Under the pieces are notes generated by a model. It was not told where the DNA came from. It searched no databases and worked only from the letters and a program-made list of their open reading frames with translations. Made by a program: the position numbers and the translations under genes. From Geobacteraceae bacterium (GTDB lineage: Bacteria; Desulfobacterota; Desulfuromonadia; Geobacterales; Geobacteraceae): a stretch of DNA of 35,119 nt. Shown one piece after another: positions 11,120 through 23,158 of the stretch (position 1 is its first letter; the number at the start of each line of letters is the position of its first letter). The stretch is taken from the NCBI GenBank assembly GCA_009773645.1, contig WSYB01000035.1, forward strand, positions 1 to 35,119, given 5' to 3'.

Positions 11120-12013
11120 ATGGCCCAGAAGGACTATTATGAGATACTCGGCGTAAAGAAGGGGGCCTCTCTCGATGAGCTCAAGAAGGCCTACCGTAAA
11201 CTGGCGGTGAAATACCACCCCGACAAGAATCCCGGCAACAAGGAGGCTGAAGAGCGCTTTAAGGGGATCAACGAGGCCTATGCGGTTCTCTCCGATCCTC
11301 AAAAGAAGGAGCAGTACGACCAGTTCGGCTCTGCGGGCTTCCACCAGCGTTTTTCCCAGGAAGACATTTTCCGCGGGTTTGATGTGGGAGACCTGTTCAA
11401 GGATGCGGGTTTCAGCACCGACGACATATATTCCCGTATCTTTGGGGGAGGCTTTCAGCAGCAGGGACGGTACGGTTTCGGCGGGGGGAGACGAAAGGGG
11501 GAAGACTACAGCATGGAGCTGACGGTTTCCTTCCGGGAGGCGTTCACCGGCTGTGAAAAACGGGTTGCCTTCAAGCGGGACGGAAAGCGGGAAGAGCTGT
11601 CAGTGAAGGTGCCGGCCGGGGTTGACACCGGCGCCAGGCTCCGCATTCAAGGCAAGGGAGGTGGCGGAGCCGGCGGCGGGCCTGCCGGCGACCTCTATCT
11701 GGATATCAAGGTGGGGAGCGATCCGCTCTTTGACAGAGAGGGGGATGATCTCACGGTGGAGCGGCAGGTAAAGTTCACGGCGGCGGCACTGGGAACCACG
11801 CTGGATGTGCCGACCATGGAGGGGCCCAAGCGCATCAAGGTTCCGGCCGGCATTCAACCGGGAACGAAGATCAGGCTCAAGGGGTTCGGTTTTCCTCATA
11901 TGGGAAAGACGGGCCGTGGCGACCTTTATGTGCGGATCGGGGTCAGCGTGCCGGACCAGCTTACCGCCCCCCAGCGGGAGCTTCTGGAAGAGCTGGCGAA
12001 GAAAGGACTTTAA
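11120..12013 (+). CDS. cbpA: DnaJ-family co-chaperone, CbpA-like
   Basis: Stimulates the ATPase of DnaK and delivers clients. The J domain fills residues 4-70 with the essential HPD at 33-35 (KYHPDKNPG). A Gly/Phe-rich segment ([19 protein letters not shown]) follows, then two beta-rich client-binding domains ([20 protein letters not shown] onward). The cysteine-repeat zinc domain of true DnaJ is missing, which makes this a type II/CbpA-like protein of 297 residues. The frame is open 30 codons further upstream, but ATG 11120 matches the J-domain start and has AGGA at 11110-11113. The gene is divergent from marR. Its 3' end runs into heptamer array C. Confidence 0.92.
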
Positions 12014-12016
12014 AGG

Positions 12017-12114
12017 CCGGGAACCGGGATATAAAATCCGGGAACCGGGATTCGGGAAGAGGAAAAACCTTGACGCTTCCCGCTTCCCGGCCTTTTACGG
12101 TTCCCGCTTCCCGA
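12017..12114. repeat. inverted heptamer array C
   Basis: Beginning three bases after the stop of the CbpA-like gene: CCGGGAA, CCGGGAT, a 7-base spacer, CCGGGAA, CCGGGAT and TCGGGAA (12017-12058). Then come the reverse-complement units TTCCCGC and TTCCCGG (12077-12090), a 10-base spacer, and TTCCCGC and TTCCCGA (12101-12114). The far end lies one base from the stop of the convergent SurA-like gene. It may act as a bidirectional 3'-end hairpin for both genes, although no U-tract follows. Confidence 0.8.
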
Positions 12115-12115
12115 A

Positions 12116-13081
12116 TTACGGCTTTATCTCAATGGCCGCACCCTTTCTCAGGTCGTCCACCCACTGGTTAAACCTCTCTTCTGACTTCTTTTTGTACAGA
12201 ATCTCTTCAATCTCCCCTTTAGCCTCATCAAAGGTCTTGATGGAGCCCAGGGATTTCTTTTCCAGCTGGATGATATGAAGGCCTGCCGGAGTGCTTACCA
12301 GGTCGCTGATTTCACCCGGCTTCATGTTAATGACGGCGCTCTCGATTTCAGGAAGCATGTCCCCTTTTTTAAAAGAGCCCAATTCGCCGCCGTCCTTGGC
12401 TGCCCCGGGGTCATCGGAGTATTTTTTCGCCAGCTCGGCGAAATCTTTGCCGCTTCGTGCTTCATGAAGCACGGACATGGCAGTGGCCATGACCCGCTTG
12501 GCTTCTTCTGCCGGAGCGTCTTTGTTTATCTTAAAAAAGATATGACGCGCGCGGAAGAGGTCCTCCTCACCGAACCTGGCGCGGTTGGCGTTGTAGAAAT
12601 CCATGATCTCCGTGATTCCCACCTGGATCTTGGAGCGGACTTCCTGGCTCATCAGCCGCAGGCGCTCCAGCTGCTCCTTGAGCTGTGCCTTGTACTGGTC
12701 GAAGGAAAGCCCCTGGACGGCCAAGGCGGCAATCAGGTTTTCCTGGGTAAGGTTATTCTGTTTCTTTACCTCTTCCATCGACTGCCGGACTTCCTCTTCA
12801 GATACCTTGATGTCCAGCTCCTTGATTTTCTGCTCGATCAGCTTCTTGTCAATGAGCCGGTCCAGGGCGACGGCCTTAAGCTTCGCCTTGCCGTCGTCGG
12901 TCAGGGGCGCCTTTTTTTCGGCTTCCTTGACAAGGAGTGAGGTTTCTTTTTCAACCTCTAAGGTTGTAATTATGTCGTCATTGACAATGGCGGCAATGCG
13001 GTCAATCACTTCGGCGTAAGAGGTCGCAGGAAGAGACGCCAGCAGCACGATCAGGAAAAAGATTTTGAATATGCGGGTCAT
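12116..13081 (-). CDS. periplasmic SurA-like peptidyl-prolyl isomerase/chaperone
   Basis: A 321-residue exported protein with a cleavable signal peptide (hydrophobic residues about 5-20, probable cut after TSYA). The N-terminal SurA-type chaperone region starts at EVIDRIAAIVNDDIITTLEVE. One parvulin domain occupies about residues 175-275 (RARHIFFKI, then DPGAAKDGGELGSFKKGDML and GLHIIQLEKK). The family helps outer-membrane proteins fold. SurA of E. coli has two parvulin domains, whereas this has one, as is common in deltaproteobacteria. It follows the lipoprotein isomerase gene on the same strand, but a strong hairpin with a U-tract lies between them, so its expression may be partly uncoupled. 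Confidence 0.88.
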   Translation of the reverse strand: MTRIFKIFFLIVLLASLPATSYAEVIDRIAAIVNDDIITTLEVEKETSLLVKEAEKKAPLTDDGKAKLKAVALDRLIDKKLIEQKIKELDIKVSEEEVRQSMEEVKKQNNLTQENLIAALAVQGLSFDQYKAQLKEQLERLRLMSQEVRSKIQVGITEIMDFYNANRARFGEEDLFRARHIFFKINKDAPAEEAKRVMATAMSVLHEARSGKDFAELAKKYSDDPGAAKDGGELGSFKKGDMLPEIESAVINMKPGEISDLVSTPAGLHIIQLEKKSLGSIKTFDEAKGEIEEILYKKKSEERFNQWVDDLRKGAAIEIKP

Positions 13082-13095
13082 ATTTGCAACTCGGT

Positions 13096-13125
13096 AAAAA
13101 AAGGGCCGGGCAAAAGCCCGGCCCT
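13096..13125 (-). terminator. rho-independent terminator/attenuator between two isomerase genes
   Basis: A perfect 10-bp stem AGGGCCGGGC/GCCCGGCCCT with a 4-base loop is followed, on the minus strand, by six T. It lies between the PpiC lipoprotein gene and the SurA-like gene, which it should partly or wholly insulate. Confidence 0.85.
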
Positions 13126-13145
13126 GGTTGGTGGCAAGCGTCTGC

Positions 13146-14069
13146 CTACTTCGATTTCGTTTCGGCGGGCTGAGCTTTTGCCTCTGAGGCGGGTTTTGTG
13201 TCGAGCCCTTTCAGGACATCCTCTTTAATGGTGTATTTGGAACTCTTTTTCAGGTCATCCTTCAGTTTCTGGAAGACTTCCTGCTGCTTGGCCGGCAGGA
13301 GGGCGGCCTTTATCTGGTCCTTCACGTCGGCAAAGGAACGGAGGCCGGCAGGGCGTTTGCCCGTAAGCTTGATGATGTGATAGCCGAATTTGGTCTTTAC
13401 GATTCCGGAGACTTCCCCTTCCTTGAGGGCGAAGGCGACCTTTTCAAACTCAGGGAGCATGGCTCCCTTGCCGAACCATCCCAGGTCGCCACCTTTTGCC
13501 CCTGCGGAGTCAATGGAATGCTTTTTGGCCAGTTCCTCGAACTTGCCTCCTCCCTTGATCTGGGTAAGGATATCCTGGGCCTCCTTTTCGGCTTTCACCA
13601 GGATATGGCTGGCCTTTACCTCTTCCCCGCTCTTGAATTTATCCTTGTTCTGGTCATAGAATTTCTGCAAGTCCGCATCGGTAATGTTTGCCTCTTCCTC
13701 GACCTTCTTCTTCAAAAACGCCTCGACAACAACGCGTTTTTTCAGGTCTTCCAGCTTGTCGGTAACTGCCTGGCTTTTATCGACACCGTTCTTTTTTGCC
13801 TCCTGCAGGATAAGCTCACGAATAACCATGGTTTCCAGCATTTCCTTCTTGCCTTCAGGGGTTTCGGCCATCGGCTTCAGGTAAGGCGGGAGGGTTTCCA
13901 GTTCTTTATTGAAATCACCGGTGGTTATGACGGTACCGTTTACCTCGGCCAGCACCTGCCCGGTTTTTGCCTCTTTCTTTGCTTCCCCCGTCGTTTTGGG
14001 ACCACAGCCGGCCAGGGCGGTTATGCAAAGGGCCAGAGCGGCCATCGTAATAAATTTATGCCTATGCAC
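13146..14069 (-). CDS. PpiC-type peptidyl-prolyl isomerase lipoprotein
   Basis: A 307-residue lipoprotein: the signal ends in the lipobox LAGC with acylated Cys22. An N-terminal chaperone-like helical part (AEVNGTVITTGDFNKELETL) is followed by a parvulin domain at about residues 150-240 (KASHILVKAEKEAQDILTQI, then GAKGGDLGWFGKGAMLPEFE and FGYHIIKLTG). The C-terminus is Lys/Ala-rich. This is the PrsA/PpiD-like group of extracytoplasmic foldases, tethered to a membrane. It is 50 bases downstream of mfd and ends at the terminator at 13096-13125. Substrates are unknown; secreted cytochromes and barrel proteins are plausible. Confidence 0.9.
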   Translation of the reverse strand: MHRHKFITMAALALCITALAGCGPKTTGEAKKEAKTGQVLAEVNGTVITTGDFNKELETLPPYLKPMAETPEGKKEMLETMVIRELILQEAKKNGVDKSQAVTDKLEDLKKRVVVEAFLKKKVEEEANITDADLQKFYDQNKDKFKSGEEVKASHILVKAEKEAQDILTQIKGGGKFEELAKKHSIDSAGAKGGDLGWFGKGAMLPEFEKVAFALKEGEVSGIVKTKFGYHIIKLTGKRPAGLRSFADVKDQIKAALLPAKQQEVFQKLKDDLKKSSKYTIKEDVLKGLDTKPASEAKAQPAETKSK

Positions 14070-14119: not shown

Positions 14120-17100
14120 TCAGACAAGCCTTTTCAAGAGATTTCTGGCCTCAGCCAGGATGCCGTCGAATGAGGAGTCGGTGAGCTCGACAATGAGCCG
14201 GTAGTCGGGAGTAAACTGGTATTTTTTCGGCTGCTGCCGAATCAGGGCGATAATGACGTCGGGTGAGACCGGCGTTTTCTGGTGGAATGCGAACACGAGC
14301 CTCTTGCCGTCGAATTCCGCCTCCTTTATCAGGAGGGCTTTCATCCGGACCCTCAGGCACATCACCTCCAGGAGATAAGAGGCTGCCAGGGGGGGCTTGC
14401 CGAAGCGGTCCACCAGTTCCTCCAGCGCTTCCTTGATATCCTCTTCGGCTGCGGCCTGCGTCAGTTTCTTGTAGATCACCAGCCGCTGGTTCGGGTCACG
14501 GACGTAATCTTCGGGTATGAAGGCAGGGATGCGCAGCTTGATTTCCGGTTCCACCCTTTCGGTCAGCTCTTCTCCCTTCAGCTTTTTGATCGCCTCTTCC
14601 ATCAGTTCGGTGTACAGCTCAAATCCCACGGCGGCAATGTTTCCCGACTGCTTTGCCCCCAGAAGATCGCCGGCGCCGCGAATCTCCAGGTCGTGGGTGG
14701 CGATGCGGAATCCCGCTCCCAGTTCGGAAATATCCTGGAGGATTTTCAACCGCTCGCGGGCGTCGGCTGAGATGGCCCCTTCACCGGGAATCAGGAAATA
14801 TGCATAGGCGCGCTGTTTGGAGCGGCCAACCCTTCCGCGAAGCTGGTAAAGCTGTGACAGGCCGAAGGTGTCGGCGCGATTCACGATCAGGGTGTTTGCG
14901 GTGGAGATGTCGAGTCCGGACTCGATGATCGTGGTGCAGAGGAGGAGATTGAATTCGCCGTGCATGAAGGCGAGCATCACCTTTTCCAGACCTTTTTCGT
15001 CCATCTGGCCGTGGGCCACGGCGATCTTTGCCTCCGGCACGATCCTCTGGAGGTGCTCCGCCATTACTCCGATGGATTGGACCCGGTTGTGTACGAAGAA
15101 TACCTGCCCCCCGCGTTGCAGTTCGCGCAGTACCGCTTCGCGGATCAACTCGTCGGAAAACCGTGCCACGAAGGTCTTTATGGCGAGCCGGTCCACCGGG
15201 GGGGTGTCTATGATGGAGAGGTCGCGGATACCCATGATCGACATGTAGAGGGTACGGGGGATGGGTGTGGCGGTCAGGGTCATGATGTCCACCACGGCCC
15301 GGTATTTCTTGAGCTTCTCCTTGTGGGTCACGCCGAAGCGCTGTTCCTCGTCGACGACCAGAAGCCCCAGGTCCTTGAAGTGGACGTCGGCCTGCAACAG
15401 CCGGTGGGTGCCTATGACGATGTCGATATCCCCCTTTTTCACCCCGTCGAGGATCGCCTTCTGTTCCTTCGGAGTGCGGAACCGGGAGAGCATCTCCACG
15501 GTCACCGGATAAGCCCTGAACCGCTCCTTAAAAGTCTCCAGGTGCTGCTGGGCCAGTATCGTGGTCGGCACCAGCACCGCCGCCTGCTTGCCGTCCATCA
15601 CCGCCTTGAACGTCCCGCGCATGGCGACCTCGGTCTTGCCGTACCCCACGTCGCCGCAAACGAGGCGGTCCATAGGTTTCTGGTTTTCCATGTCCCGCAG
15701 CACGTCCTCGATGGCTGCCATCTGGTCAGGGGTCTCCTCAAAGGCAAACGAAGCCTCGAACTCCCGGAAAAGTTCGTCCGGCGGGGAAAAGGCATGCCCC
15801 TCCTGGACCTGGCGGGCCGCATAGATCTTCAGGAGTTCCTCGGCCATTTCCTTGACCGCTTCCCTGGCCCTGGCCTTGGCCTTTTCCCAGGAAGCGCCCC
15901 CCAGTCTGTCCACATGGGGCTCGATCCCTTCCGCCCCCACATAGCGCTGGACCAGGTTGATCCGGTCCACGGGGAGGTAGAGTTTGTCTTCGCCTGCATA
16001 TTCCAGAAGGAGGAAATCCCCTTCCGTGTCCCCCAGGGTAAGGTGCTTGAGCCCCCGGTAGGTGCCGACCCCGAAGTCAATGTGCACCATGTAGTCACCC
16101 GGCTTCAGTTCCGCCAGGGAGGAGAGAATCTGCTTCTTTCTCACCTCGGAGACGCCGCGGCGCTTAACTCTCCTGCCGAAGATCTCTTCCTCGGCAATGA
16201 CCACCAGCCCTTCTTCCAGGAGGCGGAAGCCGCGCGATATCTCCCCTACCAGGATATCGACCTTGCCGTCCCTGCGCCCCCGCTCCGCCGGGAAATCCCT
16301 TTCGGTTATGTTGAGCGGCAGACCATGGGGGGCGAGGAGCTCGTAAAGCCTCTGTGCCTGGCCGCGCTGATGACAGGCAAGGATAACCCGGGTTTTTTCC
16401 GCAAGCCAGCTGGAAAGGCGTTCCACAAGCGGCTTTAACACCTCCTCGCTGTCCGGCGCCATGTCCAGCCTCAGATCGCCGTTCTCTTCCGTGTTCAGGC
16501 GATAGCTCGTGATTGCCTCTCCCGGTCCGGTCATTTCCAGGAACGGCATATCCGCCCGCCTTCTCCCGGCAAGGAGTTCCGCGACCTTGTCCGCGGAAAG
16601 AAACAGTTCGGTGCTCTCGCAGGTAATGAGGTCCCGTTCCAGGGCACTCTCCGCGGCGGCGGCAAGCTCTTCGGCAAACTGTTCCGAGGCTTCCGTTACG
16701 GCTGCCGGGTCAACCACTATCGTGACGGCATCGGCACCGGCATAGTCAAAGAGGGTTTCCAGGTCGGGGTGGAACAGCGGCTGGAGATACTCAATGCCCG
16801 GCACATAGATTGCGTTCTGCGCCTGTTCCAGAACCTCCCGTCGGCGGTCGGCCGGTATTTCCAGGGCGTCGCATCTTTTCTTCAGACGGGTCGCGAACCC
16901 CTTCAGCACGTCTTCCGACAGCACCACCTCCCGTGACGGGAGGAGGATCAGCTCGGGCAGTGGGTTGAGGGAGCGCTGGGTGACAGGATCGAAGGTCCGG
17001 ATGGTATCGACGAAATCGCCGAAAAACTCGATCCTTACCGGCGAAGTGAGATTGGGGGGGAAGATGTCGAGGATTCCGCCGCGGACGGAAAAAGAGCCGC

Positions 17101-22999: not shown

Positions 23000-23080
23000 T
23001 GCTCTTCCTCCTTGATATGAAATGCCTGCGTATTTGTATTTTTATATAAGCCAATTTACCATGCCGGTCAATAGAGACTG

Positions 23081-23158
23081 TTCTACGTTCTATGTTCTAA
23101 GTTTATCAACCTAGAACCTCGAACCTAGAACCTAGAACCTCGATCCTTGCTCCTTCAA
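23081..23158. repeat. inverted heptamer array D
   Basis: Three forward units TTCTACG, TTCTATG and TTCTAAG (23081-23101) are followed by the complementary units CCTAGAA, CCTCGAA, CCTAGAA and CCTAGAA (23110-23137). The same 7-bp register then decays through CCTCGAT and CCTTGCT to CCTTCAA (23152-23158), which contains the stop codon (23155-23157) of the minus-strand methyltransferase. A transcript leaving that gene would form a long hairpin. Confidence 0.8.

Follow-up and report, generated by a model that had tools for sequence, protein, structure and literature searches.

How do two genes that face each other across barely a hundred bases end their mRNAs when the space between them is taken up mostly by a single seven-base word? 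The question arises in a contig of a Geobacteraceae bacterium (WSYB01000035.1), of which a stretch of 35,119 nucleotides, here called the window, was analysed. The gap between the two facing stop codons measures 102 bases. An earlier note, made from the letters of this DNA, had described an array filling the gap and lacking a U-tract, and so not a standard terminator, yet the only structure available to end both transcripts.

Anatomy of the array

The array lies between a dnaJ/cbpA-like gene, which has a J domain and a DnaJ C-terminal domain and ends in TAA at 12011-12013, and a convergent surA-like PPIase gene, whose stop codon occupies 12116-12118 in plus-strand coordinates (Table 1). CGGGA begins at 12018, 12025, 12039, 12046 and 12053 (steps of 7, 14, 7 and 7) and TCCCG at 12078, 12085, 12102 and 12109 (steps of 7, 17 and 7). 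Both spacers that the earlier note described, of 7 and 10 bases, are present. Its account of how far the array reaches holds on the left, where the units begin three bases past the dnaJ stop, and needs adjusting on the right, where the final complete heptamer runs to 12113 and leaves two bases before the other stop; the single base claimed is reached if the A at 12114 is counted. Its unit, CCGGGAW, fits exactly in only five of the nine units, whereas CGGGANN fits all nine.

Table 1. Features of the dnaJ/surA gap and a second array in the window (plus-strand coordinates).
Feature	Position	Strand	Remarks
dnaJ/cbpA-like gene	11120..12013	+	Pfam DnaJ_C (E 3.1e-48), DnaJ (E 5.8e-30); gene call
Outer left arm	12017..12030	+	two heptamers, CCGGGAA CCGGGAT
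Minus-strand T-tract ATTTTATAT	12029..12037	-	directly after inner stem; includes the 7-base spacer
7-base spacer ATAAAAT	12031-12037	+	
Inner left arm	12038..12058	+	three heptamers, CCGGGAA CCGGGAT TCGGGAA
Core/loop GAGGAAAAACCTTGACG	12059..12075	none	matches family core GTAAAGGCYTTTCC on minus strand; alignment with nine other copies
Inner right arm	12076..12089	-	two heptamers (CTTCCCG CTTCCCG on plus)
10-base spacer GCCTTTTACG	12090..12099	+	short T-tract after inner stem for the dnaJ transcript
Outer right arm	12100..12113	-	two heptamers (GTTCCCG CTTCCCG on plus)
surA-like PPIase gene	12116..13081	-	Pfam Rotamase (E 6.5e-27), SurA_N (E 4.5e-17)
Array B	about 23080-23154		GTTCTAN / GAACCTN heptamers; codirectional gap, right behind the upstream stop

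Nine CGGGA/TCCCG words fall within 98 bp. Elsewhere in the window (outside 11950-12200) no 98 bp hold more than four, and 200 dinucleotide shuffles of the whole window never gave more than six, so that a chance origin can be rejected. As a plain tandem repeat the array is weak because its arms are interrupted: TRF at a score of 40 does not list it, and its best 28-base window at lag 7 (17/28) lies under the thresholds of my own array test. On the minus strand, 12116-14069 carries a tandem pair of SurA-like PPIase genes, which a clear T-tailed hairpin at 13102-13125 separates.

A terminator-like hairpin on both strands

An inner hairpin lies between the two spacers, which are themselves the A/T tracts flanking its stem. 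In the surA direction (minus strand) GTAAAAGG comes before the inner stem (CCGGGAAG...CCCGG, -27.2 kcal/mol) and ATTTTATAT, a tail also given as AUUUUAUAU, immediately after it; the stretch directly after the stem, ATTTTATA, has five T in eight bases. In the dnaJ direction (plus strand) the inner stem (-25.6 kcal/mol) is followed by TTTTACGG, also given as UUUUACGG, which amounts to TTTT and then ACGG. Folding the inner part with its flanks pairs the A- and T-tracts and lengthens the stem. The array folds better than shuffled versions of itself on both strands (z -3.4 on plus, -4.4 on minus), and the gap passes my T-tail test. The earlier note was thus right to see a structure, since a stable hairpin folds on both strands and occupies nearly all of the 102 bases. 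It was mistaken about the missing U-tract, because the inner stem is weakly T-tailed on both strands, the spacers forming short T-tracts on the right sides of it. A simple terminator pattern scan, which permits loops of 3-8 only, lists neither strand's hairpin.

The element is a nested, bidirectional, weakly T-tailed, terminator-like hairpin with further heptamer arms outside. It resembles an intrinsic bidirectional terminator in having, between convergent stops, a GC-rich stem that an A-tract and a T-tract border on either strand, but differs in that its stem is made of imperfect heptamers with mismatched letters around a 17-base core, its T-tracts are short and it carries extra outer arms. 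A known RNA family can be rejected for the window, where Rfam has nothing at gathering score (the best weak match reaches 20.1 bits against a cut-off of 76).

A very stable stem right after both stop codons, with short T-tracts, would also suit an element that does nothing but stabilise 3' ends. Rho would then end both transcripts inside the opposite gene, and 3'-5' exonucleases would trim them back to the stem, comparable to the trimming at REP/BIME stems in E. coli. I consider this unlikely: the T-tracts sit exactly where a terminator requires them, and a T-tailed hairpin occupies the dnaJ/surA gap of many relatives (below).

The five GGG runs on the plus strand raise the thought of a G-quadruplex element, comparable to the GGGAATC repeats known from Xanthomonas, which form G4 in vitro and at which, where they are G4-capable, transcripts start or stop more often (Rehm et al. 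2015, PMC4692102; statements about this and the other papers cited refer to those parts of their text that were covered). A canonical G4, with four G3 runs and loops of 1-7, is rejected because the loops are too long on both strands (4, 11, 4 and 4 on plus; 4, 14 and 4 on minus), so that any choice of four GGG runs includes a loop longer than 7. Several sister arrays, such as those of TTTCACC and GAACGTA, lack GGG runs altogether, and I regard this explanation as barely credible.

A family of period-7 arrays

The array has many relatives in its own genome. The string TCCCGGATTTTA, which joins the stem end to the tail, occurs ten times genome-wide including this copy, seven of them on contig 47, and its reversed string not once. 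A blastn search of the array against the genome gives 81 matches (itself and overlapping pieces counted), and a three-unit pattern gives 198, many of them overlapping, against six for the reversed pattern. On the minus strand the core can be aligned with nine further copies, hand-picked and already oriented to the transcribed strand. Scored with an HMM made from the core columns of these nine, the array reaches 64.8 bits on minus and 32.1 on plus, so it is an element of the same kind, read in the direction of surA.

De novo, 60 period-7 arrays were found in 533,835 bases of this genome (about 10-15% of it, enriched for array-bearing stretches), against 0-2 for each other period from 4 to 13. 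Periods 14, 21 and 17 gave 27, 16 and 15 arrays, at least in good part the same arrays as those of period 7; period 17 is 7 + 10, and 10-base spacers resembling GCCTTTTACG recur in the family. The words are many (CGGGAAG, GAACGTA, TTTCACC, GTGAGGA, GGGCAAA and others). The part taken at contig starts regardless of matches (224,023 bases, one start already known to bear a match) holds nine arrays at the strict threshold; arrays were counted in 10 of its 111 codirectional gaps and in none of its 11 convergent or 19 divergent gaps. In three relatives, sampled at 400 kb each, there are 6, 13 and 10 period-7 arrays, and in the third also nine of period 9.

That period 7 stands out from other short periods is what a mutational bias would predict, and the period may be set by polymerase slippage (PMC4692102, PMC4679880). 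The array could then be neutral filler: heptamers would grow by slippage and copying and persist where they do no harm, in the space from a stop codon to the ribosome-binding site that follows, while termination would happen elsewhere or be weak. I regard this as the main alternative, a serious one and only somewhat less likely than the reading preferred below. Against it, slippage alone leaves the recurring core and the T-tracts unexplained, and copying of whole elements would be needed as well.

Some loci bear on how the family spreads. On contig 47 (1-40,000 and 55,001-95,000) there are 26 GGGANN clusters in 80 kb, mostly between minus-strand genes, which looks like local spread within the region. 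At L013:8734-8926 a single gap holds HMM matches arranged head to tail, of which the last two lie 55 bases from each other and have the T-tract; whole elements, besides single heptamers, therefore seem to duplicate. Within the window, array A (1793-1852, between codirectional genes) has GTTCTGA, GTTCAGG and GTTCTGG facing CAACTCA GAACTCA GAACC, close to but not exactly the MTYCTGA of class 3 in G. metallireducens.

Array B (Table 1) separates two genes that, judged by eye, are methyltransferase-like and cyclophilin-like. The upstream gene was found in 9 of 48 genomes including this one, and all eight relatives that have it lack the array; between their two genes there is no more than a short stretch, in which a TATA-like element lies. 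Array B is thus extra DNA against each of the eight, whose distance is too great to place an empty site to the base, and was gained in this genome between the stop codon and the next promoter-like region.

Arm order and arm pairing

Inverted pairs of a given word keep one order. Counted between genes in four genomes, the ratios are 29:1 for GGGA, 18:1 for GTTC, 10:0 for GTGA and 4:0 for GAGG, or 61 to 2 over these four words, the ones with enough pairs; since each word was named in the orientation first seen, the ratios speak to constancy within a word only. In the fetched stretches of this genome alone GGGA stands at 28 to 0. Among the eight words tried, GGTG gave 1:0, GGTC and GGGC had no inverted pairs, and TTGA ran the opposite way (0 to 2, both in this genome). 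This counts against neutral filler, since slippage alone does not account for arms that come in pairs with a fixed order for each word.

The arms are not matched base by base. Along the transcript, 5' arms of codirectional clusters read GGGAAGC in 45 of 67 units and 3' arms are mixed, contig 47 contributing much to this count. In 21 clusters the real arms are less complementary than arms whose variable letters were redrawn (mean z +0.95, p 1.6e-4), which means that no base-by-base optimisation of the stem is under way; the idea that selection keeps the arms complementary is rejected, since real arms pair worse than permuted or pooled words. Pairing below chance counts in favour of neutral filler. 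Long perfect palindromes are unstable in bacterial DNA, and the poor pairing may reflect this instability or, equally, a different origin of the two arms.

I do not claim that the element always points with transcription, which holds for the contig 47 copies. Word-based counts favour the sense orientation (16 to 4 with one tie, copies used for the HMM included), held-out HMM matches are sense in 21 of 31 cases (p 0.07), and held-out codirectional copies outside contig 47 divide into 9 sense and 10 antisense.

Placement relative to genes

Arrays avoid gaps without a gene end. In the samples from four genomes they occupy 2 of the 138 divergent gaps, compared with 80 of the 888 that adjoin one gene end or two (p 0.001). 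These counts are approximate because the gene caller was home-made (called coding fraction 0.78-0.85), and they omit 18 arrays of this genome called genic and two at stretch ends. Such avoidance of promoter-bearing gaps argues against a binding site for a nucleoid or global regulator protein such as IHF or HU.

In 40 of 71 codirectional array gaps the array overlaps the upstream stop codon or lies no more than eight bases from it. Uniform placement with the last 20 bases before the start barred would give 27.6 (P 9e-6); with the last 40 barred it would give 36.0 (P 0.07), and the preference is no longer clear. Because the expectation rises with the barred stretch, much of the preference for stop codons amounts to avoidance of the next start region, as neutral filler would have it. 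Heptamer arrays also lie inside genes, a further point for neutral filler: they are seen within long ORFs at L029:7807-10182 and 14433-15521, L028:17018-19345 and L031:16599-19283, three of these four ORFs holding several, and Aklujkar et al. likewise report heptamer elements within genes in Geobacter.

Many arrays seem to lie inside operons because 21 of the 43 codirectional array gaps of this genome leave at most 39 bases, and so little promoter room, between array and start. A strong terminator would do harm in such apparent operons, and similar hairpins there suit a stem that only stabilises 3' ends. Tails with at least six T are rarer at gene ends of this genome with an array (4/52) than without (37/248). 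At the looser limit of at least five T, and against one shuffle, codirectional array gaps have 10/40 real and 5/40 shuffled tails and convergent ones 3/12 of each, so T-tails are at most slightly enriched in array gaps generally. That arrays seem to sit in operons, and that array gaps have fewer long T-tails, makes me doubt a strong terminator role.

The same gaps in relatives

Three array-bearing convergent gaps (dnaJ/surA, C57 and C50) were compared at 30 loci each, this genome included, with 45, 46 and 43 of 48 genomes matched. The dnaJ/surA gap holds an ordinary terminator, judged by eye, in seven named Geomonas and Citrifermentans loci, which makes a gene-end role for the array plausible. 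Other relatives have arrays of other words in the same gap (AAGGAAC-like, CCGGGAC, TTGGTGA and GGTCGGC): a Geobacter-named MAG (L071/L045), a Geobacteraceae MAG (L079/L049), L072 and L074, that of L071 having been seen by eye only and not called by the strict test. In the C57 gap 9 of 30 loci have arrays, of CGGGANN in this genome, of GTTCAAC- or GAACGTT-like words in seven of one genus and of CCTCCCG in another. There, L207 (G007) carries a long CCTCCCG/CCTCCAG array, and at L217-L226 the GTTCAAC/GAACGTT arms are common to several genomes of one genus and enclose loop sequences that differ. The C50 gap has arrays at 5 of 30 loci: that of this genome, one of GGGCTAA, one ACGTGAGG-like and two CAATTGAC-like. 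The array test made one false call in 1160 shuffled gaps. Gaps under 40 bases, with little room for array or terminator, make up 6, 6 and 11 of the 30 loci.

Such turnover is hard to reconcile with a sequence-specific protein. Aklujkar et al. 2009 (PMC2700814) proposed IHF or HU sites for the paired tandem repeats of G. metallireducens, whose members occupy opposite strands at variable distances, and by analogy the array might bind one of them. A single such protein could hardly tolerate relatives that fill one gap with different words, and I hold this account to be highly improbable. The turnover of words and copy numbers between relatives agrees with neutral filler.

At first count, T-tailed terminators accompany 5 of 17 arrays against 26 of 41 array-less gaps (p 0.023, related genomes not being independent here or in the values below). 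This test omits gaps under 40 bases, two of which had earlier been flagged as arrays, and the 1, 1 and 7 of 30 loci without a convergent neighbour. The exclusion fades because the dnaJ/surA array and that of L071, which the strict test misses, pass the T-tail test: with both counted as arrays the figures become 7/19 against 24/39 (p 0.10), and without the C57 gap p is 0.44. I have dropped the idea that arrays and T-tailed terminators exclude each other, and its want of robustness suits neutral filler. Since the same gap in relatives holds other heptamer hairpins, ordinary terminators or almost nothing, the seven-letter hairpin at gene ends looks like a fast-changing kind of gene-end marker and not a one-off.

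Comparison with known repeats

Palindromic elements dispersed at gene ends are familiar from REP/BIME elements and the RAYT transposases. The arrays resemble REPs in dispersal, palindromy and gene-end position, and differ in that the stem is built of seven-base words. The Y1 transposase matches give no sign of a link to RAYTs: they occur in 45 of 48 family genomes, with nine in this genome, and the stretches fetched around four of these nine loci hold no period-7 arrays.

Heptameric simple repeats are over-represented in several bacteria. The GGGAATC/GGGANTN repeats of Xanthomonas are GGGA heptamers too, mostly intergenic, near stop codons, scarce between divergent genes and described as of unknown function (PMC4692102). 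Two genomes have 70 and 75 convergent pairs, potentially folding as stem-loops, not every repeat belonging to one (PMC4692102); the array here is such a convergent inverted pair, five CGGGA followed by four TCCCG. It differs in having T-tracts, a 10-base spacer, no canonical G4 and many other words beside it in the genome. The Xanthomonas set is defined by two or more tandem heptamers of which one is GGGAATC; no GGGAATC unit occurs in 12017-12114, though tandem GGGANNC units do, and GGGAATC is present in arrays elsewhere in the same genome.

Among related bacteria, G. metallireducens has 49 elements of four GGGACCG units within and between genes, and its class 3 consists of paired MTYCTGA sites (PMC2700814). 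These share tandem heptanucleotides and, in class 3, opposite-strand pairs with the arrays described here; they differ in their words and were proposed as regulatory RNA or IHF/HU sites. Four tandem GGGACCG or GGACCGG units are not found in the array, whose word is CGGGAWN, the comparison resting on the article's text. The passages covered give neither turnover in orthologous gaps nor terminator context (PMC2700814). Heptanucleotide and other multicopy elements in Geobacter are treated in a 2010 paper (PMC2996986), and the genome paper of Pelobacter carbinolicus mentions multicopy sequences (PMC3543383). The TAACTGA repeats of Beggiatoaceae and cyanobacteria are likewise seven-base tandem intergenic repeats, but of one word, with 169 direct sets and one indirect, and in the Guaymas genome lie particularly upstream of start codons (PMC4679880). 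The literature covered, with few subscription journals and no supplementary files, holds no account of different heptamer words in one orthologous gap or of a nested T-tract in heptamer arrays.

What the array may do

My preferred explanation, to which I give a probability of roughly 0.4, is a hairpin at gene ends that is rebuilt rapidly and either terminates or caps the two mRNAs. I infer action at the RNA level, in termination or 3'-end protection, from where the array lies, from its T-tracts and from what relatives have in the same gap, be it terminators or other arrays. The hairpin would have its stem built from copies of the seven-base word. With an A-tract before it and a T-tract behind it on each strand, the inner stem would act as a bidirectional, moderately weak intrinsic terminator, halting a share of the polymerases that come from either side. 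Where a polymerase reads past, both mRNAs could be trimmed against the stable stem, which the outer heptamer arms would extend and which as a whole would shield the 3' ends of the transcripts made. The heptamer arrays of Geobacteraceae would spread by copying and grow back seven bases at a time, which would let lineages fill the same gene-end gap with different words.

A bolder version supposes that an active process, not plain slippage, writes paired, fixed-order heptamer words at the 3' ends of Geobacteraceae genes, displacing ordinary terminators, with the word changing by lineage. I think it unlikely. If it were true, gene ends would be marked by architecture and not by sequence, and the constant period of seven across unrelated words would be the footprint of the writing enzyme.

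The abundance of heptamers among the longer simple repeats of many bacteria is unexplained in the literature examined. Here many heptamer words follow the same arm-order rule in one genome, and relatives differ in the same gene-end gap; the question becomes testable because the gene-end gaps of related strains differ in their word or carry a canonical terminator. If the hairpins do end or cap mRNAs, they would represent a class of gene end that is missed by terminator finders which need a short perfect stem and a long U-tract.
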